Shown piece by piece: positions 1,795-16,601 of a stretch of DNA of 20,276 nt; within the stretch, counting starts at the first letter, position 1; every line of letters starts with the position of its first letter. Both the position numbers and the translations under genes were made by a program. The notes under the pieces are model-generated. The model was given only the letters and a program-made list of their open reading frames with translations, was not told the origin of the DNA and did not search any database. Source of the DNA: a virus; IMG/VR virus record IMGVR_UViG_3300017746_004298, positions 1 to 20,276 of that record; one strand, 5' to 3'.

Positions 1795-2625
1795 ATGAGA
1801 GTTGGTGTCATAGGTAACGGGTTCGTTGGTCATGCAATGACGTTGTTACGACCCGGTGTAGCAGTGCTAGTATGGGATATCGAACCAGACAAATGCGAGC
1901 CATTCGGATTAGGTTTCAATCAGTTTGTTGAGATGTCTGAGATCATCTTTGTTGCAGTTCCTACACCTATGAATCAAGACGGTACATGTCACCTAGACAT
2001 TGTGGAGACAGTGGTGCAAAAAGTCAAGAACCAAGATTCAGACACGCCGATCGTTTTACGTTCAACAGTGTTGCCCGGTACCAGTGACAAGCTCGGCGTA
2101 AGTTTCATGCCAGAGTTTCTGACCGAGAAGCATTGGAAGGATGATTTTTACAATTGTGATCAATGGATCATAGGCACTGATGACGATACACTGATGACCA
2201 AGTTGCAACACATGTTCAGTCTAGCACATGTAGAAGACTGCGTGTGTAACAAACAAGTCATACACATGAAACCTGCTGAAGCGGAGATGATAAAATATAT
2301 CAAGAATTGTTTCTTGGCTACCAAAGTGAGCTTCTTCAACGAGATGTACCAGACATGTGAAGCTGCTGGTATTGATTTTGAGACTGTACGAAACATAGCA
2401 TGTGATGACACAAGAATTGGACACGGACACAGCACTGTACCAGGTCATGATGGCATGTGCGGATATGGAGGAACATGCTTCCCTAAAGACACGAACGCTC
2501 TATTGAAGTTCATGGAACAACACGGTGTTCTGAGTCACGTGCTGAGTGGAGCGGTGACCAGAAATGAAACAATCGATCGTGCAGAGAAAGATTGGACCAA
2601 AGATGTGGGACGAGCGTCAATTTAA
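1795..2625 (+). CDS. UDP-glucose/GDP-mannose dehydrogenase family protein, short form
   Basis: The family oxidises the C6 hydroxyl of a nucleotide sugar to a uronic acid using two NAD+. Residues 4-12 (GVIGNGFVG) are the N-terminal Rossmann GxGxxG motif, VAVPTPMN (53-60) the family NAD-site segment, YIKN (168-171) holds the conserved Lys/Asn, and GYGGTCFPKD (223-232) contains the catalytic Cys228. At 276 residues it is much shorter than typical enzymes (about 390-440): the C-terminal UDP-binding domain is missing although the active-site Cys is kept. An AGAGGT Shine-Dalgarno-like stretch lies 6 bases before the ATG. It sits between a glycosyltransferase and UDP-galactopyranose mutase, consistent with nucleotide-sugar supply for surface glycans. 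Exact substrate unknown. Confidence 0.85.
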   Translation: MRVGVIGNGFVGHAMTLLRPGVAVLVWDIEPDKCEPFGLGFNQFVEMSEIIFVAVPTPMNQDGTCHLDIVETVVQKVKNQDSDTPIVLRSTVLPGTSDKLGVSFMPEFLTEKHWKDDFYNCDQWIIGTDDDTLMTKLQHMFSLAHVEDCVCNKQVIHMKPAEAEMIKYIKNCFLATKVSFFNEMYQTCEAAGIDFETVRNIACDDTRIGHGHSTVPGHDGMCGYGGTCFPKDTNALLKFMEQHGVLSHVLSGAVTRNETIDRAEKDWTKDVGRASI

Positions 2626-2648
2626 TTTACCGTAAGTCGATGTAAATT
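2624..2648 (+). other. Short A/T-rich inverted repeat after the dehydrogenase gene
   Basis: AATTTAC (2624-2630) and GTAAATT (2642-2648) can form a 7-bp stem with an 11-base loop overlapping the stop codon region. There is no T run after it, so a terminator role is doubtful; it might protect the 3' end. Confidence 0.3.
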
Positions 2649-2671
2649 GTGTGGTTCCATACCATAAAAAG

Positions 2672-2679
2672 AGTAAATA
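2672..2679 (+). promoter_or_regulatory. T4-type late promoter (AGTAAATA)
   Basis: The octamer AGTAAATA matches the T4 late consensus TATAAATA at 6 of 8 positions and ends 7 bases before the ATG at 2687. Since T4 late transcripts start about 6 bases after the octamer, the predicted 5' leader is 1-2 bases. Confidence 0.6.
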
Positions 2680-2686
2680 CATATAC

Positions 2687-3703
2687 ATGAAGATTCATAT
2701 TTACGGATGCGGCATGAGCGGTGTCACAGCTGCCATTTTATTCAAAGAACAAGGGCATGATGTTGAGATTTTCGAAGTGAGAGATCACATCGCGGGCAAT
2801 TGTTATGACGAGAAGAATGACGATGGATGTACAGTACATAAATATGGTAGCCATATATTTCACACAAACAATGAACAGGTGTGGACATTCTTGAACAGAT
2901 ACACCAAGTTCAACAGTTACGAGCATCGTGTACGTGCTAACACCAAAGAAGGTCTGTTGAGCATACCATTCAGCAAGAAGACAGAGGAGCAACTGGGTCG
3001 TGATCTGGATCCAAAAGAGATACAAGACCTGTTGTTCCGAGAATATTCAGAACGTCATTGGGGCATACCTTGGGAACAGTTACCCAAGAGCATCAGCGGC
3101 AGAGTGCCCAACAAACGTGACAATCATGACGACAGATATTTCACAGACAAATATCAAGGCATACCCGAGAATGGATACACTGACATGTTCAAAAACATGC
3201 TTGATGGCATCAAGGTTAACCTGGGTGCAGAGCGTGGTTTACACAAGCGTCTCAAAGCAGATCTTGTGGTTTGGACAGGCAAGATATCTGAGTATTTTGA
3301 CTTGAAATTCGGTCATCTCCCTTATCGCTCGTTACGCTTCGACCACACACGAGTCAAGAAGGATCCAATGTACACATGGGACGCTGGTGCGGTGATCAAC
3401 GAGTGTAACACCAAACCATTCAATCGCACCATGGACAACAGCGTGTATTTGAATGAGGATGTGACACACACCATACACACTCGTGATTTTCCAGAAGAGT
3501 ATGAAGAGGGTAAAAATGATCCTATCTATCCTAAAACATTTGGAGAAGGACCTAAAGTGTATCAAAAGTATCTGAGAGCGGCCATGGCCGATCAGAACAC
3601 CATATTCTTGGGTCGATTAGCAACATACAAATACCTTGACATGTGGATGGCAGTGTCTCAAGTGATGGCCAAGCTCAAAACAAGTGACAAGTTAAAAAAA
3701 TAA
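2687..3703 (+). CDS. glf: UDP-galactopyranose mutase
   Basis: This flavoenzyme interconverts UDP-galactopyranose and UDP-galactofuranose, the donor for galactofuranose-containing glycans. The N-terminus (MKIHIYGCGMSGVTAA) carries the FAD-binding Rossmann glycine motif, followed by EIFEVRDHIAGNCYD, YGSHIFHTNN and, near the C-terminus, GRLATYKYLDMW, all hallmarks of the family. Length is 338 residues, slightly shorter than most bacterial enzymes. An in-frame GTG at 2651 would add 12 residues, but that extension covers the late promoter octamer at 2672-2679, so the ATG at 2687 is preferred. It follows the glycosyltransferase and dehydrogenase genes and suggests this phage helps make or alter a galactofuranose-containing structure. 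Conserved Arg residues were not checked individually. Confidence 0.93.
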   Translation: MKIHIYGCGMSGVTAAILFKEQGHDVEIFEVRDHIAGNCYDEKNDDGCTVHKYGSHIFHTNNEQVWTFLNRYTKFNSYEHRVRANTKEGLLSIPFSKKTEEQLGRDLDPKEIQDLLFREYSERHWGIPWEQLPKSISGRVPNKRDNHDDRYFTDKYQGIPENGYTDMFKNMLDGIKVNLGAERGLHKRLKADLVVWTGKISEYFDLKFGHLPYRSLRFDHTRVKKDPMYTWDAGAVINECNTKPFNRTMDNSVYLNEDVTHTIHTRDFPEEYEEGKNDPIYPKTFGEGPKVYQKYLRAAMADQNTIFLGRLATYKYLDMWMAVSQVMAKLKTSDKLKK

Positions 3704-3733: not shown

Positions 3734-4774
3734 ATGAGTAGTCAGACAACAGTACGCCCCCTTAGTTCATTTTACAGCACCAATCTCAACCCTATAGTCA
3801 GATCATACGAGAAGCTGGCCACTCGTATAGCATACACGTTGGGATATCCTCAAGTGAACGTCGAAGCTCATCAGAACCAGGTGTATGAGAACATCGCTAT
3901 CGCTCTGGAGATGTTCACCAAGTATGCTGGTTACACAGAAGAGCTACTCACATTCAATTCAGAGCTGTACAGACCTGGTGAAGGTCTTCGCATGGATGTG
4001 TTGTTCACAGCGACAGATCAGATGAGTGTGCCAGAAACATATAACAATCCGACAGATGATGAACAAGATGAATTAGACAAAAGCTTGTACGAGATCGGAG
4101 TGATGGAGATCGATTCCGGTACCAATCCGTTTGTGGTGGGTGGAGCACCTACAGACGATCAGATTGTGAGTTCTGCGGTGAGGGATGATATAGTTGGCAC
4201 CAAAGGATGGGACACGTTGACGGACAGTTATCGACGAGTGGTGGATGTGTTCGCATTTGAAGAAGGAAGTTCTTCCGGTATAAACACGTTGTTCACGCTG
4301 GAACAAACCCTCGCACAGCAAACATATTTCAGTTATGCTCTCGGCAAATACGGCTTCGATTTGATCAGCTGGACCACCATGAAAAATTGGTTGGACATGA
4401 GACGCAAGCTGTTGTCACAAGACTATTATTTCAGATTTGATGACCGTAGACAAACACTGTATCTAACTCCGGAACCAGGAGTGGGTAAAAGACGCACACA
4501 TTTTTATGGCATCGTTGGTGCGTATGTGGAGCGACCGGTGCATCAATTGGTTAGTGAGCCGTGGGTGTATCAATACGCGTTGGCGTTGACTAAGATCATA
4601 ATCGGGAGAATTCGAGGCAAATACAGTGGCACCAATCTGTTCGGAGGAGGGTCACCAAACTACAGTGAGCTGTTGAGTGAAGGTAACACTGAAAAAGACA
4701 AGCTGGAGACAAGCTTGTACGAGGGTGTGCCAGGTTTTGGAGACGGACAGCCGCCGTTGTTCTTCGTAGGGTGA
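3734..4774 (+). CDS. Probable virion structural protein, neck/connector type (gp13-like candidate)
   Basis: 346 residues, acidic, with no signal peptide or membrane segment. The N-terminal segment around residues 36-64 (LGYPQVNVE, then helices with NIAIALEMF) resembles the opening of neck/head-tail connector proteins of marine T4-like phages, which often read LG-x-P-x-V-x-V-E followed by an amphipathic helix. The late promoter directly upstream and the position just before the head genes support a virion role. The assignment to gp13 rests on memory of family patterns, not a search; baseplate or other connector roles remain possible. The C-terminus is rich in Gly, Pro and Phe. Its stop codon overlaps the GTG start of the sulfotransferase by 4 bases. 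Confidence 0.6.
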   Translation: MSSQTTVRPLSSFYSTNLNPIVRSYEKLATRIAYTLGYPQVNVEAHQNQVYENIAIALEMFTKYAGYTEELLTFNSELYRPGEGLRMDVLFTATDQMSVPETYNNPTDDEQDELDKSLYEIGVMEIDSGTNPFVVGGAPTDDQIVSSAVRDDIVGTKGWDTLTDSYRRVVDVFAFEEGSSSGINTLFTLEQTLAQQTYFSYALGKYGFDLISWTTMKNWLDMRRKLLSQDYYFRFDDRRQTLYLTPEPGVGKRRTHFYGIVGAYVERPVHQLVSEPWVYQYALALTKIIIGRIRGKYSGTNLFGGGSPNYSELLSEGNTEKDKLETSLYEGVPGFGDGQPPLFFVG

Positions 4775-5337
4775 TCTGTCACAAACATAAATGCATATTC
4801 ATCCATGTGCCAAAAACCGGTGGTACGAGTGTTGAGTGGGCTTTGCAAAATAAAAAAGAACCGTTGAACCGGAAACATAAAACATCCAATGAGATTTATA
4901 AACTTCATCCGGTGGAGTGGGAGCAATATTTTAAGTTCACAGTAGTCAGAAACCCATGGGACTGGTTAGTGTCTTGGTATTACTGGAGAAAATTAGTAGA
5001 TAGAATGTCATTTAAAGAGTTTTTACTGAATTATAATTTATCCCGACCGGTCACTGTAACCGAAAAAAAACGCGACTATCTACCAGATGTGATAAACTTT
5101 ACAAATTATTTAACAATTGATGACAAACTGGTGATGGACCACACGTGTAGGTTCGAAAACTTACAGCATGACTTTCAAGTGGTGTGCGATGAATTAAACA
5201 TTAATGCGACACTTCCACATAAAAATAAAACAAATCACAAACACTACACTGAATATTACGATGACGAAACAAAACAAATTGTCGCGGAAAAATACGCGAA
5301 AGATATAGAGTATTTTGGATATCGATTCGGAGAATAA
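4771..5337 (+). CDS. Sulfotransferase family protein
   Basis: Sulfotransferases move sulfate from PAPS to hydroxyls, usually of glycans in this subfamily. Residues 10-20 (FIHVPKTGGTS) are the 5'-phosphosulfate-binding P-loop, with Lys14 in the catalytic position. TVVRNPWDWLVSWYYW (57-72) is the 3'-phosphate-binding strand-helix with Arg60 and Ser68, and RFENL lies near the expected helix. Length is 188 residues, compact for the family. The start is GTG, chosen because it overlaps the preceding stop codon (GTGA) and places the P-loop near the N-terminus; translation is probably coupled to the structural gene. Together with the sugar genes upstream it suggests sulfation of a phage or host glycan. 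The acceptor is unknown; a tyrosyl-protein acceptor is an alternative. Confidence 0.85.
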   Translation: MICHKHKCIFIHVPKTGGTSVEWALQNKKEPLNRKHKTSNEIYKLHPVEWEQYFKFTVVRNPWDWLVSWYYWRKLVDRMSFKEFLLNYNLSRPVTVTEKKRDYLPDVINFTNYLTIDDKLVMDHTCRFENLQHDFQVVCDELNINATLPHKNKTNHKHYTEYYDDETKQIVAEKYAKDIEYFGYRFGE

Positions 5338-9587: not shown

Positions 9588-10520
9588 CTATTGCTTGGCA
9601 GTTTTGACATGCATCACATTCTCGTCACCCAGATCATGAGCCTCTTGAAATATCAAAGGAAAATCAGTCGCTCTCACTGGATTAATATCTATACCACCTC
9701 TACGAGCATACAAACATGTAACACATAGTCTCGAGGGGGACAACACATCATGTAAACGCTTGTATAGCGTCTCACATATCTCCTCATGGAAATGACACTC
9801 GTCTCGGAAAGACACGATGTACTTCAACAAACTCTCAGGTGTGACCTGATTGTGACCTTCACACATCACATACACATCACCCCAATCCGGTTGACTCGTG
9901 ACACGACAATTGCTCTTGAGCAAGCTGCTGTGATACCTTGTGGTTGTTGACAACACTTCACATGGCTCTTCAACTTCTAACAGCTCTGGGGACTCTTCAT
10001 ATGTATCCAACATCATCTTCCCTAGTCTCTCTTGTGAATACATCGCTTCTATAGTCATATACTTATCATCACATAAAACACTGTCTCCTGGGGCTCTGTT
10101 ACTAGCAGGTATTGTTTTGACGGTGACATGTGTTCCTAACAGTTCAGACAGATCTTTCGCTGCTGTAGTGTCAATAAAATCCATCACTTGAGCTGGAGTG
10201 TCTCCACATTTGAACATGTTGAACGAATTGAAGTACAACTTGATACTCTTGCTCTCCACTATATATTTGCTATCACACGAGTATATAACTTTCGTAACTC
10301 CGGCTACTGGCAGACCGTTGTTAGTTAGCGCGCTCACTTCATACGCATTCCATGTGTCAAAACCAACAAAAGGTAGATCATCATCTTCGATGCTCAAATG
10401 CTTTCTGTTGTTGCTTCTAGGTTCATTGACTAACAATCCAGAATCATACTGATCTTTGTACTGTGATGTCTGCCCTAAATGCTTTGATATTCTACTATTA
10501 TCTAATACTATATTACTCAT
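9588..10520 (-). CDS. queF: NADPH-dependent 7-cyano-7-deazaguanine (preQ0) reductase QueF
   Basis: QueF reduces the nitrile of preQ0 to the aminomethyl of preQ1 with two NADPH. The 310-residue protein has the long, two-domain bacterial architecture. The QueF motif ESKSIKLYFNSFN (89-101) is in the N-terminal half. The catalytic block LLKSNCRVTSQPDWGD (200-215) gives nucleophile Cys205 and Asp212, HFHEE (243-247) supplies His245-Glu246, and ARRGGIDINPVR (272-283) is the conserved C-terminal strand. It is the last gene of a minus-strand operon, overlapping the kinase gene by 8 bases. Host QueF serves tRNA queuosine; here the linked DpdA-like transglycosylase and formyltransferase suggest preQ1 is meant for DNA. 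No queC, queD or queE is in the window. Confidence 0.95.
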   Translation of the reverse strand: MSNIVLDNSRISKHLGQTSQYKDQYDSGLLVNEPRSNNRKHLSIEDDDLPFVGFDTWNAYEVSALTNNGLPVAGVTKVIYSCDSKYIVESKSIKLYFNSFNMFKCGDTPAQVMDFIDTTAAKDLSELLGTHVTVKTIPASNRAPGDSVLCDDKYMTIEAMYSQERLGKMMLDTYEESPELLEVEEPCEVLSTTTRYHSSLLKSNCRVTSQPDWGDVYVMCEGHNQVTPESLLKYIVSFRDECHFHEEICETLYKRLHDVLSPSRLCVTCLYARRGGIDINPVRATDFPLIFQEAHDLGDENVMHVKTAKQ

Positions 10521-11115
10521 TTAAAATTGATCTTATTTTTTCCATCCTCTGCTCGACAGATCCACTCAATCGGATTATCTTATCGCGCCAGGTGTCTTTA
10601 CCGGGTGTCGACATGGATTTGCTCATGATGTCCTCATATATATCCACAATATCTTTCCGGAATTGTGTATTCACACTACGTTCACCATCATCTTCAATTG
10701 GTATATCATCTGGCTCGGTATAGAGTATATAATCCAATCTCTCACCCAACATGCTCAACAAACCACATGCATAGTTTAACACCCACTTTTCAACCGAACC
10801 TTGTTCATGTAACCATCTTGTGAACACATAACCATCTAGTATACACCTATCAAGCACCCATCTCTCATTTTTATTAACGGTGTGATTCTGTAGATGTTCT
10901 TTAAGTATGAACAACTGTGTCACATCATCTCCCTCTTCGTTGATCTTCAGGCCTCCTCGCATCACTTTACGGGTAACTTCCGGTACGAAATTCCATTCAT
11001 CTCGGTACACCTCGTCAACCCCCTGTGTCCATTTTTTCCCGCACAGCTCATCTCTTAATAGATTTAACAGAGTAGTTTTACCTGTACATTGTGCTCCTGT
11101 AAACCCTATCAACAT
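10513..11115 (-). CDS. P-loop nucleoside/nucleotide kinase-like protein (AAA_28/NadR-like)
   Basis: 200 residues. GFTGAQCTGKTT (4-15) is a Walker A loop with Lys13, and WVLDRCILDGYVFTRW (86-101) contains the DR-x motif typical of the deoxynucleoside/nucleotide kinase and NadR-like kinase groups. TEPDDIPIEDDGER (about 133-146) resembles the phosphate-donor lid region. The protein could phosphorylate a nucleoside, a nucleotide or a modified base derivative; the substrate cannot be told from motifs. It has its own sigma70-like promoter only 6 bases upstream of the ATG and overlaps queF, so the pair can be made independently of the rest of the operon. Other members of this family act on nicotinamide riboside, so the dNTP role is inference. 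Confidence 0.75.
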   Translation of the reverse strand: MLIGFTGAQCTGKTTLLNLLRDELCGKKWTQGVDEVYRDEWNFVPEVTRKVMRGGLKINEEGDDVTQLFILKEHLQNHTVNKNERWVLDRCILDGYVFTRWLHEQGSVEKWVLNYACGLLSMLGERLDYILYTEPDDIPIEDDGERSVNTQFRKDIVDIYEDIMSKSMSTPGKDTWRDKIIRLSGSVEQRMEKIRSILNE

Positions 11116-11121
11116 AATATT

Positions 11122-11150
11122 ATTATAACGTCATGTAGATATAAAATCAA
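11122..11150 (-). promoter_or_regulatory. Sigma70-type early promoter for kinase-queF
   Basis: On the minus strand TTGATT (11150-11145), a 17-bp spacer, then a perfect TATAAT (11127-11122), then 6 bases (AATATT) and the ATG at 11115. The usual start 7 bases after the -10 box would be the A of the ATG, so the mRNA would be leaderless. Confidence 0.8.
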
Positions 11151-11155
11151 CTCGA

Positions 11156-11527
11156 TCATCTCGGAAAATTATGTCTATCTTCTACTATCTGTTGAAACTC
11201 CATCTGCTCTTCTGTCGGTTCTTCTCCAACCCAACTGTTGTCTTCAACCCACATGGCACATAGCATGTTCCACACAACTGCTGCTGCGTGATCTTCATCG
11301 TCCTTACCTGACCACCAGGCTTCTAGATGTCGATGCGCACAATCATAAAACACACTCATGGGCATGCCCTTCATCCAGTTGTTCTCTCCATACTTTTCTG
11401 CACCATCCAAGTATCTTCTCATCACACGTTTCAACTCCTTCTGTGGTAAGAGACTCATTCGAAGTTTACCTTCTCCTGTGTCGCGTTGTGCTCCGGTGTC
11501 AAATTGTCTATTCTTCTCTTCCATCAT
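11156..11527 (-). CDS. dATP/dGTP diphosphohydrolase-like protein (MazG-like/MazZ-like)
   Basis: From the preferred start the protein has 123 residues. Its opening FDTGAQRDTGEGK followed by LLP, then GAEKYGENNWMKG and DEDHAAAVVWNML, matches the N-terminal domain called dATP/dGTP diphosphohydrolase (formerly DUF5664), an all-alpha NTP pyrophosphatase related to MazG and to MazZ of 2-aminoadenine phages. Such enzymes hydrolyse purine dNTPs to dNMP. Upstream in-frame starts exist at 11596 and 11542, but they lie inside the membrane-protein gene; the ATG at 11527 has AAGAGA about 6 bases upstream and removes a sequence unlike the family. It sits in the dpd operon, so a role in shaping the purine dNTP pool is likely but unproven. 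No PurZ is visible. Confidence 0.8.
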   Translation of the reverse strand: MMEEKNRQFDTGAQRDTGEGKLRMSLLPQKELKRVMRRYLDGAEKYGENNWMKGMPMSVFYDCAHRHLEAWWSGKDDEDHAAAVVWNMLCAMWVEDNSWVGEEPTEEQMEFQQIVEDRHNFPR

Positions 11528-11756
11528 TAATATCTCTTGCATCTTGGTGTTGATAATGCTTGTTGTATGTCCAGCAACCACACCAAGCTGCGACAATGGT
11601 TGAGAACACTGCTAGCATGGATCCAACGCTCACCAGGTAAACAGCCATCAACATGTTCAACACACACCCGACTACCATCCATTTGCCTTTTTGATTTAAG
11701 TTGCTCCATGGAGCGATCATTTGTTGTGTATAATTTTCGGTCCGGACCGGTTCCAT
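11508..11756 (-). CDS. Small membrane protein, two transmembrane segments
   Basis: 82 residues from the ATG at 11756, with two hydrophobic stretches, roughly residues 27-44 (MVVGCVLNMLMAVYLVSV) and 46-61 (SMLAVFSTIVAAWCGC), joined by a very short turn. The C-terminus is charged. The 11756 ATG has a good GAGGTGG Shine-Dalgarno 4 bases upstream; a second ATG at 11720 overlaps the preceding stop as ATGA and would give 70 residues with the same membrane part. Both starts remain possible. It overlaps genes on both sides, showing it belongs to the operon. Function unknown; its place within a modification/nucleotide operon is not explained. Confidence 0.7.
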   Translation of the reverse strand: MEPVRTENYTQQMIAPWSNLNQKGKWMVVGCVLNMLMAVYLVSVGSMLAVFSTIVAAWCGCWTYNKHYQHQDARDINDGREE

Positions 11757-12259
11757 AGATCCACCTCACAGGTGCTCAATCTCTCGTTCAATGTACTGAA
11801 CCTCTTGATGTTACCTTCATGATCTCTTTCTCTAGTCAAACCTCTCTTGGTTATCTCAACACAATCTATCAGATCAGTGCCATTGTACCCGTTCTCATAT
11901 GATGTACTAAATAAGCCGTCAGGATGGGTAAATCCAATAATAACACCATACTTGACACGAGCGTTATGTTTCTTGACAACCACGTCACCAAGTTCATAGT
12001 TTGTTTCATATTTGAATTTGAAGTTTTCATCTATTAATTTACATTTGTCAGCAGATACTCTTTTTATTTTGTATGTACCGTCTGCTCGGAACATTGGTTT
12101 AAGTCGCTTGTCATACACGATCAATTCGAATCTAGGAGCTCCGGAGCCATCAATTACACTGAACACCTCTCCTACTTGTCGTGTGGTTCCAGTTTTGTAT
12201 CGAACAACACTACCTACCTCTATAGGATCATCTTTGTTTATTTTGAATATTTTCTTCAT
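11717..12259 (-). CDS. Unknown protein with two beta-barrel-like segments
   Basis: 180 residues, basic, without signal peptide or membrane helix. The segments VGSVVRYKTGTTRQVGEVFS (16-35) and YELGDVVVKKHNARVKYGVI (about 90-109) both look like the start of a small SH3/KOW-like barrel, with a hydrophobic strand, a turn of charged residues, then a V-G-x-I/V strand, so the protein may have two such domains. No catalytic motif is seen. Its first bases overlap the lipoprotein gene and its end overlaps the membrane-protein gene. An AGTAAATA octamer lies about 19 bases before its ATG, further than in the other late-promoter genes. I do not recognise a family. Confidence 0.7.
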   Translation of the reverse strand: MKKIFKINKDDPIEVGSVVRYKTGTTRQVGEVFSVIDGSGAPRFELIVYDKRLKPMFRADGTYKIKRVSADKCKLIDENFKFKYETNYELGDVVVKKHNARVKYGVIIGFTHPDGLFSTSYENGYNGTDLIDCVEITKRGLTRERDHEGNIKRFSTLNERLSTCEVDLWNRSGPKIIHNK

Positions 12260-12431
12260 GCTTGTTTGTTTTTGTGTTATTTACTAGTTCTCTCAATAAA
12301 TTTGATGATTGTTGCTCCACCTCTATTGTTATTCTATGATCTATTTGAATTTTGTGTTCTGAAACAAATTTTGTGCAGCTTGTGAGTGTTGATAATATTA
12401 ATAGTGTTGTTATTACTTTATGTGGCTTCAT
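12228..12431 (-). CDS. Small predicted lipoprotein
   Basis: 67 residues. The N-terminus is a signal peptide (MKPHKV, then ITTLLILSTLTSC) ending in the lipobox LTSC, with Cys19 as the lipidated residue. The mature part is 49 residues, hydrophilic and probably helical. The ATG lies inside the 3' end of the formyltransferase gene (14-base overlap) and the 3' end overlaps the next gene by 32 bases. The architecture fits an outer-membrane spanin subunit (Rz1-like) or a superinfection-exclusion lipoprotein; neither can be chosen. A spanin would be unusual in an early-type operon. Confidence 0.7.
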   Translation of the reverse strand: MKPHKVITTLLILSTLTSCTKFVSEHKIQIDHRITIEVEQQSSNLLRELVNNTKTNKHEENIQNKQR

Positions 12432-12981
12432 TTGAATTGCAGGTTAATACTTGTACCCACAATTCTGTAGCCATCTCATGTAAGTGGCAACTTAATTGAT
12501 CTGCTGATGAAAATCTGTTTTGTGTAGAACTTTCTGCCATTACAGGGCCTTCATCTACACCAGCTTCTACTCGATGTATCACACAACCAACGACATCATA
12601 CTCCTTCAAACCACCAGTACTGGCATGACTGTTCTCAAACACCTGCCTTTGTGGATCTTTACCTTTCAACTCTGGATATTTTGTTATGAGCCCGGGATGC
12701 AGATTGTACATCTCATACTCGTTACAAATCTCAGGAGGTATTATCCTCATCCAACCATGTAACGTGACCACAGTGTCAGGATTCAACACCGCCCGGTAAT
12801 CCTGGATGCTGGGTTTTTTAGGAGTGTATATGTTTTCCCGTATACCCTCATGTATATTTTCACACCCTGGTGGTTTGTTAGTCACCACGACGTCTGGATA
12901 TCTACCTATCCTGTTGGCAACATTAACTATTTCAGATCCAGTCTGACTGAAAAACGCGGTCCAATGTTTGTCTTTTATCAT
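12418..12981 (-). CDS. Formyltransferase (PurN-like fold), DpdN-like candidate
   Basis: 187 residues of the formyl_transf fold using 10-formyltetrahydrofolate. The catalytic triad is present in family order: MYNLHPGLITKYPELKGKDP (91-110) gives Asn93 and His95, and GCVIHRVEAGVDEGPV (132-147) gives Asp143. FFSQTGSEI (10-18) replaces the usual substrate-phosphate loop of PurN, LVSGNGSNLQ, suggesting a different acceptor; this is a comparison from memory. The ATG overlaps the stop of the transglycosylase gene by 4 bases (ATGA), which implies coupled synthesis. Phages with DNA containing (formylamino)methyl-deazaguanine are reported to carry a dedicated formyltransferase (DpdN), so this gene is a strong candidate for that role. 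The alternative is an ordinary GAR transformylase for purine synthesis. Confidence 0.85.
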   Translation of the reverse strand: MIKDKHWTAFFSQTGSEIVNVANRIGRYPDVVVTNKPPGCENIHEGIRENIYTPKKPSIQDYRAVLNPDTVVTLHGWMRIIPPEICNEYEMYNLHPGLITKYPELKGKDPQRQVFENSHASTGGLKEYDVVGCVIHRVEAGVDEGPVMAESSTQNRFSSADQLSCHLHEMATELWVQVLTCNSNEAT

Positions 12982-13796
12982 CTGTTAATAATTTTTTTAA
13001 ACATTCTAGTGTTGTATTGTATGTCTTCCATCTGATCATCTGTTACTTGATGTTCAATCAAATCAGCTAACATGGTGCTCGGTTTGTGATATAGGCCCAT
13101 GCTATCATTATATCGGTATCCTTTTATTCCGGCAACTACCGGGTTACTTGTGTCAACACTTCTGATGTTGTATATGTTGTTATCTACATAATACTTAAAC
13201 TCTCTAGCCAAACTACAACCTAATAAGTGGTGAGGTTTTTCCCAGTTCCAATATCCCTCATCAATCAATTGACTGATAAACCTTTTCCTACCGGAGCTGT
13301 ATTTGACTAGTTTCTCTGGTGCCCAGTCACCTTCAACCAATCCAGTTGTTTGATAATAACTATAATCAAAACTTATAGCTATATAATCAGCCCGGTCCTT
13401 CATGAAATTATAACATCTAACCAATTCATTCCAATCTCGTCCTTGCACAACACCAATTCTCAATGCATCTGTCTTATCTGTATACAACTGCTCCCAGTCT
13501 TTCCATTGCTGTATTGTGTCATAACAACTCTCAAGTACATCCGGCACAATGTACCAATTGGGGTGTAACTTGTCTATCCACTCAACGTACTTCTTAGGTT
13601 CAAAGCTTTTACCTAACTCGAATATGCTGTTGTCCAATAGCACCGGTTTATCATCTTTGATCACCATGTTGGAATAATGTTCAAAATACTGCGGATGTGT
13701 TTCAAACAAATGAACCAACGCGTATCCGTAATCGTTATACTCACAAGCTTGATCTAATATGCTTATGGGACTCTCATGTGATACTTCTATTCTCAT
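12978..13796 (-). CDS. dpdA: TGT-like DNA guanine transglycosylase (DpdA-like)
   Basis: 272 residues. TIM-barrel motifs of tRNA-guanine transglycosylases occur in order: LLDNSIFELG (53-62, Asp55), WYIVPDVL (81-88, Asp86), RIGVVQGRD (113-121, Gln118), IAISFDY (139-145), HHLLGCS (189-195), and RSVDTSNPV (212-220), where Asp215 is the likely nucleophile. The C-terminal zinc-binding cysteine cluster of bacterial Tgt is absent and the protein is about 100 residues shorter, as in phage DpdA proteins that insert 7-deazaguanines into DNA rather than tRNA. An upstream in-frame ATG at 13850 is rejected because that extension would cover the sigma70 promoter. First gene of the operon ending in queF. Which DpdA subfamily and which sequence context it prefers cannot be told. 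Confidence 0.85.
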   Translation of the reverse strand: MRIEVSHESPISILDQACEYNDYGYALVHLFETHPQYFEHYSNMVIKDDKPVLLDNSIFELGKSFEPKKYVEWIDKLHPNWYIVPDVLESCYDTIQQWKDWEQLYTDKTDALRIGVVQGRDWNELVRCYNFMKDRADYIAISFDYSYYQTTGLVEGDWAPEKLVKYSSGRKRFISQLIDEGYWNWEKPHHLLGCSLAREFKYYVDNNIYNIRSVDTSNPVVAGIKGYRYNDSMGLYHKPSTMLADLIEHQVTDDQMEDIQYNTRMFKKIINR

Positions 13797-13802
13797 ACTA
13801 TT

Positions 13803-13831
13803 ATTATAACACCTTATGTTGCATATGTCAA
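13803..13831 (-). promoter_or_regulatory. Consensus sigma70 early promoter of the dpd operon
   Basis: On the minus strand a perfect TTGACA (13831-13826), exactly 17 bp, and a perfect TATAAT (13808-13803). AATAGT (6 bases) then leads directly to the dpdA ATG at 13796. Transcription is expected to start on the A of the ATG. No ribosome binding site fits before it. Confidence 0.92.
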
Positions 13832-13860: not shown

Positions 13861-16311
13861 ATGAAAGTAACACCTGAACTGTCCCCTGGAGCTAGGCGAG
13901 TAATGTCACGCGCGAAAAGCGTGGCACGTGATTACAAGCATGATTTTATTACAACAGAGCACGTACTGTTGGGTATACTCGAGAGAGAGCGACCCACTAT
14001 AGGTGTGTCTCTCATGAGAGAATTAGATGTTGATGTGGACAAATTCAAGTCTTTTGTTATATCCAATCTCAAAAAGTACGTTGGTCCAAAAAAACCCAAG
14101 CTCGATAGTGTGGAACCATCCTCTCGTGTGCTGAAAATGCTGACATACGCAGGAGCAATTGCGAGTGAGATGGGTGTTGACCTGGTGATGGTGGATCACA
14201 TACTGTTGAGTATATTAGTTAGTGATGCTGGTAGCGGTAACAATCTGTTCAGATTGAAGAACATTGATGTCAACTTTCTATATGAGATGATATACACAGA
14301 AGTGTATCCTAAAAGATCTAAAACCAAAAAGAAACAACCAGTGACTGATGATCATGGTGACATGATCGAGTCATTCGAGGAAGAGACAAACGACAAGCTC
14401 GAGAAATATGCTGTCAATTTGACTAGACAAGCTCTTGAAAGAGAGTTGGATCCAGTGATTGGTAGGGACGCAGAAACACAAAACATGATACAGATATTGT
14501 GTCGCAGGACCAAGAACAATCCAGTATTGATCGGAGAACCCGGAGTGGGTAAAACAGCAGTTGTAGAGTTACTGGCTCATAAAATTGTGAATGGTGATGT
14601 GCCACGACCACTTAGAAACAAACACATATACACTCTGGACCTGGCTAGACTAGTAGCTGGTACAATATATCGTGGACAATTCGAAGAGAGGCTCAAGGAG
14701 GTTATATCCATAGCACAGTCAAAAGCCGATATCATATTGTTCATTGATGAGTTGCACATGCTAGTAGGAGCTGGAAGCAGCACCGGTAGCATGGACGCTA
14801 GCAACATACTCAAACCGGCGTTGGCTCGTGGACAATTATCATGTATAGGTGCCACGACAATACAAGAATATAAGGAGTTTATCGAGAGTGATGGAGCCCT
14901 GGAGAGAAGGTTTCAGACTGTACATGTGGATCAACCTACAAATCAAGAGACGGTAGTGATACTCAAAGGCATTAAGGACAAGTATGAGCAGTTCCACCAC
15001 GTTAGATACAGCAACGATGTGATAGATGAGATCATACATCTTTGTGATCGATACGTAACTGATAAAAACTTTCCAGACAAAGCGATTGACGTGTTGGATG
15101 AAGTCGGTTCACGTGCCAACGTGAGTAGATACACACCAACCAAAGAGCTTGAAGAGTTGCGCGATGAGGCTGAGTGTGTCAAGAAAAGAAAAGAACTCGC
15201 CACTGAAAATCAAGAATTTGATCTGGCAATAGGTTACAGGGAGACTGAGTATTGTTTGGTTGAAAACCTAGCAGGGTTGTTGATACAGCAAGAGAAACTC
15301 GAATCCGGTGACACGAAGCGCATCCGCATCAACAAGGATCATGTGAAAGACTTGATAAGTGAGAAGACCGGAGTACCGGTGACCAACATGAACACAGACG
15401 AGGCCACCAAAATGTCCTCTCTGGAGTCTAAAATCAACAAAAGTGTGATAGGTCAGTCTGACGGTGTCAAGAAGATATGTAATGCAATCAAGCGCAACCG
15501 AGCCGGAGTGAGTGACCCCAACAAGCCCATATGCTCTTTGCTATTTCTAGGCCCCACAGGTGTGGGTAAGACATATCTAGCCAAGACTTTGGGTGATGAG
15601 ATGTTCGACAACTCATGCTTCAAACAATACGACATGTCAGAATTTTCTGAAAAACATTCCACAAGCAAATTGATAGGCAGCCCTCCAGGATACGTCGGTT
15701 ACGGAGAAGGGGGGAGCTTAACGGAGTTTGTTAGACACACACCTCATAGTGTGATACTATTGGATGAGATAGAAAAAGCTCATCCTGAGGTGCTACAACT
15801 GTTTCTCCAGGTGTTAGAGTATGGATGCTTGACAGATAGTGAGGGACTTGAAGTCAATTTTAAGAACACCGTGATCGTGATGACCAGCAACATTGGTGCA
15901 CATAAGTTTGAAAAACAACCCACCGTGGGGTTCGGACAAACGAGCAACCTGACTGAGAGTGTGATTAGTGAGCTCAAGAAGATGTACGCTCCGGAGCTAC
16001 TCAACAGATTTGATGAACTCATCGTGTTCAACAAACTAGAACAACAACATTTACACAAGATCACAACGCGACTACTCAACACGATACGTAAAACTGTACG
16101 AGCCAATAGCAAAAAGATTATTGAATTTTCACCAGAAGTGTGCGAACATGTGGTGAGTAAGTGTGAACAAGTGTCAACATATGGAGCCAGACCCATGAAA
16201 CGTACCATTACTGAGTTGATAGAGACACCATTGGCTGAGTTCATAATATCCAACCTGACAAACAAACGAATCAAAGTGCAGGTGCAACAGGATCAGATCA
16301 CTTTTTGCTGA
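13861..16311 (+). CDS. ClpC-type Hsp100 AAA+ unfoldase
   Basis: 816 residues. The N-terminal double Clp domain (residues 1-145, [13 protein letters not shown] near 27-39) binds adaptors and substrates. The first AAA+ module has Walker A GEPGVGKT (225-232) and Walker [10 protein letters not shown] short middle linker with a UVR-like [12 protein letters not shown] stretch is of ClpC type, not the long ClpB arm. The second AAA+ module has Walker A GPTGVGKT (564-571) and Walker [12 protein letters not shown] (631-641). VGF at 689-691 matches the ClpP-docking loop, so it may feed the host ClpP protease. An earlier in-frame ATG (13816) would span the late promoter, so 13861 is preferred. Phage-borne full-length ClpC is unusual. 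Targets unknown; degradation of host regulators or an assembly chaperone role are options. Confidence 0.93.
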
Positions 16312-16587: not shown

Positions 16588-16601
16588 CCTAAATATTTAT
16601 A
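16588..16601. promoter_or_regulatory. Overlapping bidirectional late promoter
   Basis: Only 15 bp separate the ATGs at 16585 (minus) and 16601 (plus). The minus strand reads a perfect TATAAATA (16601-16594) and the plus strand CCTAAATA (16588-16595). Both share the palindrome TAAATATTTA (16590-16599). Spacing to the ATG is 8 bases on minus and 5 on plus. Confidence 0.75.

Follow-up and report, generated by a model that had tools for sequence, protein, structure and literature searches.

A candidate DpdA3-type 7-deazaguanine DNA-modification cassette and its kinase partner in a T4-like viral contig

The window analyzed here is the whole 20,276-base viral contig of IMG/VR record IMGVR_UViG_3300017746_004298, which an earlier reading of the letters alone (the sequence-only reading) had ascribed to a T4-like phage. 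Profile searches agree, finding the head genes gp23 (2e-91) and gp21, a prohead protease (Peptidase_S77, 1.6e-25), on board. The DpdA-like, formyltransferase and QueF genes claimed by that reading are all present on the minus strand, as judged by open reading frames (ORFs) and profiles, but its gene list was incomplete: a kinase gene of the same cassette had been overlooked (Table 1). Gene content, gene order, predicted fold, conserved residues and co-occurrence are established directly for these genes, which very probably represent a DpdA3-type 7-deazaguanine DNA-modification cassette making formyl-dPreQ1 DNA; the enzyme activities, the product, full guanine replacement and protection of the DNA are predictions. 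We take the transglycosylase to be a DpdA3, in the terms of Cui et al. 2023.

Genes of the cassette

Table 1. Predicted features of the cassette region, in coordinates of the window.
Feature	Coordinates	Strand	Evidence
Sigma70-type promoter, TTGACA-17-TATAAT, 12/12, extended -10	13803..13831	-	Ends about 4 nt before the dpdA ATG (13798-13796)
DpdA3-type guanine transglycosylase, 272 aa	12978..13796	-	phrog_19058 5.1e-47, invariant residues, AlphaFold model
DpdN-like formyltransferase, 187 aa	12418..12981	-	PF00551 1.9e-12, N93/H95/D143 triad
Three small ORFs (67, 180 and 82 aa), no function assigned	11508..12431	-	Flanked by dpdN and the PF18909 gene
dATP/dGTP diphosphohydrolase N-terminal domain protein, optional neighbor	11156..11596	-	PF18909 3e-21
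Promoter-like site, 10/12	11122..11150	-	Its end is a few nt upstream of the kinase ATG
P-loop deoxynucleoside/thymidylate-kinase-like protein, 200 aa	10513..11115	-	AAA_28 2.3e-14, PDB profile matches, AlphaFold model, co-occurrence
QueF, preQ0-to-preQ1 reductase (predicted), 310 aa	9588..10520	-	PF14819 3.7e-32, PF14489 1.4e-19

The length of DpdA is counted from a conserved ATG; the open frame itself reaches to 13850. The protein carries the motifs LLDNS at position 53, VVQG at 116 and SVDTSNP at 213, and in an alignment of 49 homologs D55, Q118-G119 and D215 are invariant, with D86 and G193 invariant or nearly so. Among its Cys and His residues we did not find the zinc-type cluster of three Cys and one His that marks tRNA-type tRNA-guanine transglycosylases (TGTs), bearing out what the sequence-only reading had said, and for this reason the protein was not filed as a tRNA TGT. 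Searches against Pfam, NCBIfam and PDB sequences returned no significant relative, and the Pfam TGT profile was unmatched. Proof of TGT membership by sequence profile thus fails, and structure alone works. An AlphaFold model built from the 49 homologs (pLDDT 95.4, pTM 0.92) has the (beta/alpha)8 fold of TGTs: in a Foldseek comparison with the PDB, all 50 matches listed were TGTs (best E-value 7.6e-8, probability 1.00; TM-score by query length 0.56-0.66). The TGT-like enzyme of the sequence-only reading is thus placed by its fold where sequence profiles miss it, and, judged by the model, DpdA clearly belongs in the TGT superfamily. A weak profile alignment pairs VVQG with IIQG of Escherichia coli Tgt, and by eye D215-xxx-P resembles the Tgt nucleophile motif D264-xxx-P; D215 is likely the nucleophile of DpdA. 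Recognition of DpdA2 in earlier work likewise required HHpred (PMC6884629).

The stop codon of dpdA and the start of dpdN share four nucleotides, ATGA (12978-12981). The dpdN product matches Formyl_trans_N, and its triad of N93-x-H95 and D143 is invariant across 51 homologs. It scores 41.8 bits against the PurN equivalog TIGR00639, far under the cut-off of 150.1, and so lies outside bona fide PurN. Fold, Asn-His-Asp triad and linkage to both DpdA and QueF are those expected of a DpdN. In nine viral loci a 79-aa protein recurs between DpdA and DpdN (for example, locus L081, 5926-6162); it has no match in Pfam or PHROG.

QueF passes both of its Pfam cut-offs and contains Cys205, within SNCRVTSQPDWGD, and Asp212, together with the NADPH motif ESKSIKLY at 89-95; with these features it should yield preQ1 and not the archaeosine base. 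Each motif and residue listed by the sequence-only reading (VVQG, SVDTSNP, the Asn-His-Asp triad, Cys205/Asp212) could be located, and those of DpdA and the formyltransferase are invariant in homologs.

In a profile search of the PDB, the kinase matches deoxynucleoside kinases, NadR and thymidylate kinases, and the structures nearest to its AlphaFold model are deoxynucleoside kinases (Foldseek). P-loop residues G12 and K13 and the DR motif D89-R90 are invariant in the alignment. P-loop, DR motif and fold together place the protein in the deoxynucleoside/thymidylate kinase superfamily. Its probable substrate within the pathway is a deoxynucleoside or deoxynucleotide of guanine type.

Co-occurrence in viral loci and relation to known phages

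A scan of IMG/VR seeded with the formyltransferase gave more than 100 loci, of which the best 80 were examined. DpdA, kinase and QueF were present in the loci with enough sequence, though a few were short of one member, the gap falling either at the end of the contig or inside the stretch examined. A DpdA-seeded scan gave at least 555 relatives, and the best 80 loci were again examined, counting only loci that extended 4 kb or more downstream (5 kb for QueF). The kinase was found in 51 of 52 such loci, QueF in 45 of 46 and DpdN in 36 of 52, making the kinase a more constant partner of DpdA than the formyltransferase. Conversely, all 53 usable kinase-seeded loci contained DpdA. Loci without DpdN run DpdA-kinase-QueF, so unformylated dPreQ1 is predicted there; in one locus (L112) with DpdA and DpdN, the kinase and QueF were not found. 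These loci are phylogenetically non-independent, and the best-scoring ones are biased toward close relatives. No non-cassette neighbor exceeds 24 of 73 loci, which indicates that the flanks turned over and the core stayed. The sharing of cassette neighbors across dozens of distinct viral loci is more than chance.

Among optional neighbors, the 82-aa small ORF has homologs in eight loci, and 16 loci have a phosphoribosyltransferase close to the cassette (for example, L026, 3758-4192) that might salvage guanine freed by DpdA. The PF18909 gene is seen in 24 of 53 kinase-seeded loci, yet in only 1 of 21 long records, and a PRA-PH gene in 4 of 22; a constant dGTP-hydrolase partner, which the logic of Z-genome phages would call for, was therefore rejected as a fixed part of the cassette.

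The long records extend the association. The kinase is present in all 21 that carry this DpdA, namely 19 viral contigs and the phages immuto and CP220. A second kinase paralog occurs in 10 of the 19 viral contigs, a few kilobases from QueD and mostly adjoining QueE, as well as in CP220 (elsewhere in the genome) and in CC_R7. QueD, QueE and the second kinase form a recurrent neighborhood in large viral contigs (L247-L256). Genes for preQ0 synthesis lie elsewhere in most long records (QueC in 18 of 22, QueD in 20 of 22), and a single 11.6 kb contig, L265, holds QueE, QueD, FolE, DpdA, DpdN, kinase, QueF and QueC. In the genome bin L268 the kinases sit on other contigs, not shown to be of the same phage.

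When the window kinase was searched by tblastn against 50,697 phage records, matches were confined to immuto and Campylobacter phages. This kinase clade is missing from the DpdA1/DpdA2-type phages 9g, Dp-1, nt-1 and KVP40; nt-1 and KVP40 gave only weak matches, to a 327-aa frame. CC_R7 is a seeming exception, with a very divergent DpdA and the kinase 64 nucleotides downstream. Two phages, BSP7 of Bacillus and Youna2 of Weizmannia, encode a DpdA relative that is farther removed (hhalign probability 99); immediately before it lies another P-loop protein, weakly related to the kinase, and after it DNA polymerase A. In the limited literature searched, we found no description of the linkage between this kinase and DpdA.

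The closest isolated counterpart is Flavobacterium phage vB_FspM_immuto_2-6A (NC_055915), with the order DpdA-formyltransferase-kinase-QueF as in the window. Identities to the window proteins are 43% for DpdA (annotated as such), 44% for the formyltransferase, 31% for a thymidylate-kinase-like gene and 47% for QueF. Unlike the window, immuto has a MazG/PRA-PH-type gene upstream, with FolE, QueD and QueE just upstream, whereas only in the window do a PF18909 gene and three small ORFs separate DpdN from the kinase. The gene set, whose novelty the sequence-only reading had implied, is thus already found in an isolated phage. The product and the three named enzymes are likewise already known: Cui et al. 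2023 reportedly described formylated dPreQ1 (7-(formylamino)methyl-deazaguanine), the dPreQ1 formyltransferase DpdN and DpdA3, the last said to be a transglycosylase subfamily allowing complete guanine replacement.

Campylobacter phages CP220 and CPt10 (Firehammervirus) have a DpdA 41-42% identical to that of the window (42% for CP220; CP220 and immuto together, 41-43% over 85-93% of the length). The kinase follows DpdA directly, and a second copy is present. Unlike the window, CP220 and its relatives gave no formyltransferase or QueF by tblastn. In CP220 and CPt10, 100% of dG is reported to be replaced, by dADG (PMC8306585). Phages 9g (DpdA) and nt-1 (DpdA2) likewise use a TGT-like enzyme to introduce 7-deazaguanine into their DNA, but its sequence has no detectable similarity to the window DpdA.

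Proposed pathway and the stage of base exchange

In the pathway we propose, preQ0 would be supplied by the host or by phage FolE, QueD, QueE and QueC outside the window, and QueF would convert it to preQ1. DpdA would then exchange guanine for preQ1 by TGT chemistry, acting either on completed DNA or at the nucleotide level, and DpdN would formylate the aminomethyl group with 10-formyl-tetrahydrofolate. The resulting 7-(formylamino)methyl-7-deazaguanine would replace most or all guanine in phage DNA and may hide it from host restriction enzymes. The formylated dPreQ1 proposed by the sequence-only reading is well supported, since it follows from the TGT placement and from a non-PurN formyltransferase linked to DpdA and QueF, though the chemistry itself is inferred. 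Where that reading spoke of some or all guanines, we lean to all, given that replacement is reported as complete in CP220 and CPt10, the closest relatives with measurements.

Four points weigh against this pathway. Neither TGT nor the DpdA of phage 9g is linked to this DpdA by any sequence profile. QueF scores 242.2 bits against a TIGR03138 cut-off of 293.45, with a match over nearly its full length; being below that cut-off but above both Pfam cut-offs, it is read as a divergent phage member. Genes for preQ0 synthesis are absent from the window, which as a fragment could leave them elsewhere in the phage genome. Finally, formyltransferases accept many amines, so the substrate of this one is deduced from its neighbors. 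Two other explanations for the genes seem highly improbable to us. Queuosine in tRNA also draws on QueF and TGT-fold enzymes, and the genes might boost it in host tRNA with no role in phage DNA, but this DpdA has no TGT zinc site, a formyl group has no place in that pathway, and relatives of the same DpdA are found in phages whose DNA replacement has been measured. Similarly, the PF00551 fold and remote PurN similarity could fit a phage PurN for purine supply, a reading that we consider just as implausible given the score far under the PurN cut-off and the tight linkage to DpdA and QueF.

The stage at which the base is exchanged is more evenly balanced. To an exchange in finished DNA, with DpdN formylating base or DNA and the kinase feeding dGTP supply or salvaging nucleotides from degraded host DNA, we give an even chance. 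This is the accepted mechanism of characterized DpdA and TGT enzymes and agrees with the TGT fold of the model; Cui et al. 2023 are said to have concluded that insertion is post-replicative. It leaves unexplained why the kinase clade tracks DpdA3 and not DpdA1 or DpdA2, and why a second kinase copy stands beside QueE. Somewhat short of even is the chance that the substrate in which DpdA3 replaces guanine by preQ1 is a deoxynucleoside or deoxynucleotide, which DpdN would also formylate and one or more kinases would help to reach a polymerase-ready triphosphate. The kinase being more constant than DpdN, its confinement, among the 50,697 phage records, to immuto and Campylobacter phages with absence from 9g, Dp-1, nt-1 and KVP40, the second copy near QueE/QueD and the resemblance of the kinase model to deoxynucleoside kinases all speak for such a route, as does the general knowledge that PurN-type enzymes usually act on small molecules. 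The complete replacement reported in CP220/CPt10 (PMC8306585) and the modified dGTP proposed for Campylobacter phages (PMC6884629) are counted on the same side. Against it stands the polymer substrate of TGTs and other DpdAs; 9g DpdA, for instance, modifies plasmid DNA in E. coli (PMC6884629). The cassette also lacks a constant dGTP hydrolase, and the kinase could serve general deoxynucleoside triphosphate (dNTP) supply. Charge, tried as a sign of DNA binding by DpdA, proved uninformative and does not discriminate, as the isoelectric points of DpdA3 (median 5.3) and 9g DpdA (5.6) are alike.

The near-constant kinase, its second copy by QueE and full replacement in relatives favor nucleotide-level exchange without proving it. 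In its explicit form, with DpdA3 as a deoxynucleotide base-exchange enzyme, DpdN formylating the nucleotide and one or two kinases helping to make a formyl-preQ1 dNTP before replication, we advance the idea tentatively and rate it a shade lower again. If nucleotide-level exchange holds, the cassette would share with Z-genome (aminoadenine) phages the logic of a prebuilt modified purine nucleotide; unlike those phages, the window has no PurZ-type enzyme that we could see, and its dGTP-hydrolase partner is not constant.

Promoters, contig context and wider meaning

The consensus sigma70 promoter noted by the sequence-only reading is confirmed as the sole 12/12 match in the region, weaker promoter-like sites being at chance level. 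Spacing from the -10 element to the ATG at dpdA and at the kinase is kept in most close relatives, which suggests that both transcripts may be leaderless. Of the single operon with overlapping genes that had been described, the ATGA overlap stands; a single operon is not shown, because a promoter-like element of its own precedes the kinase, which is separated from dpdN by four ORFs. Elsewhere in the window, ATAAATA-type boxes lie just before the starts at 3734, 6203, 7054, 13861 and 16601 (plus strand; TAAATA at 16601) and 16585 (minus strand), and resemble the late promoters of T4, with leaders that would be very short.

Divergent from dpdA, a ClpA/ClpC-type AAA+ unfoldase gene (13861-16311, plus strand) seems an unusual gene for a T4-like phage to carry. 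Genes for a UDP-glucose dehydrogenase-like protein, a UDP-galactopyranose mutase and a sulfotransferase precede the head genes (1795-3703 and 4771-5337, plus strand). A PADLOC scan for defense systems gave zero matches.

With these results a T4-like phage of marine type joins the carriers of a formyl-deazaguanine cassette, and the number of IMG/VR relatives of its DpdA indicates that this cassette type is common. The near-constant kinase offers a testable handle on how complete guanine replacement is reached in some phages, as between the modified-dGTP and post-replicative proposals. Should the nucleotide route prove true, the enzymes would be useful for producing fully modified DNA, and nature would have, next to the Z-genome, a second way of substituting a purine throughout a genome.

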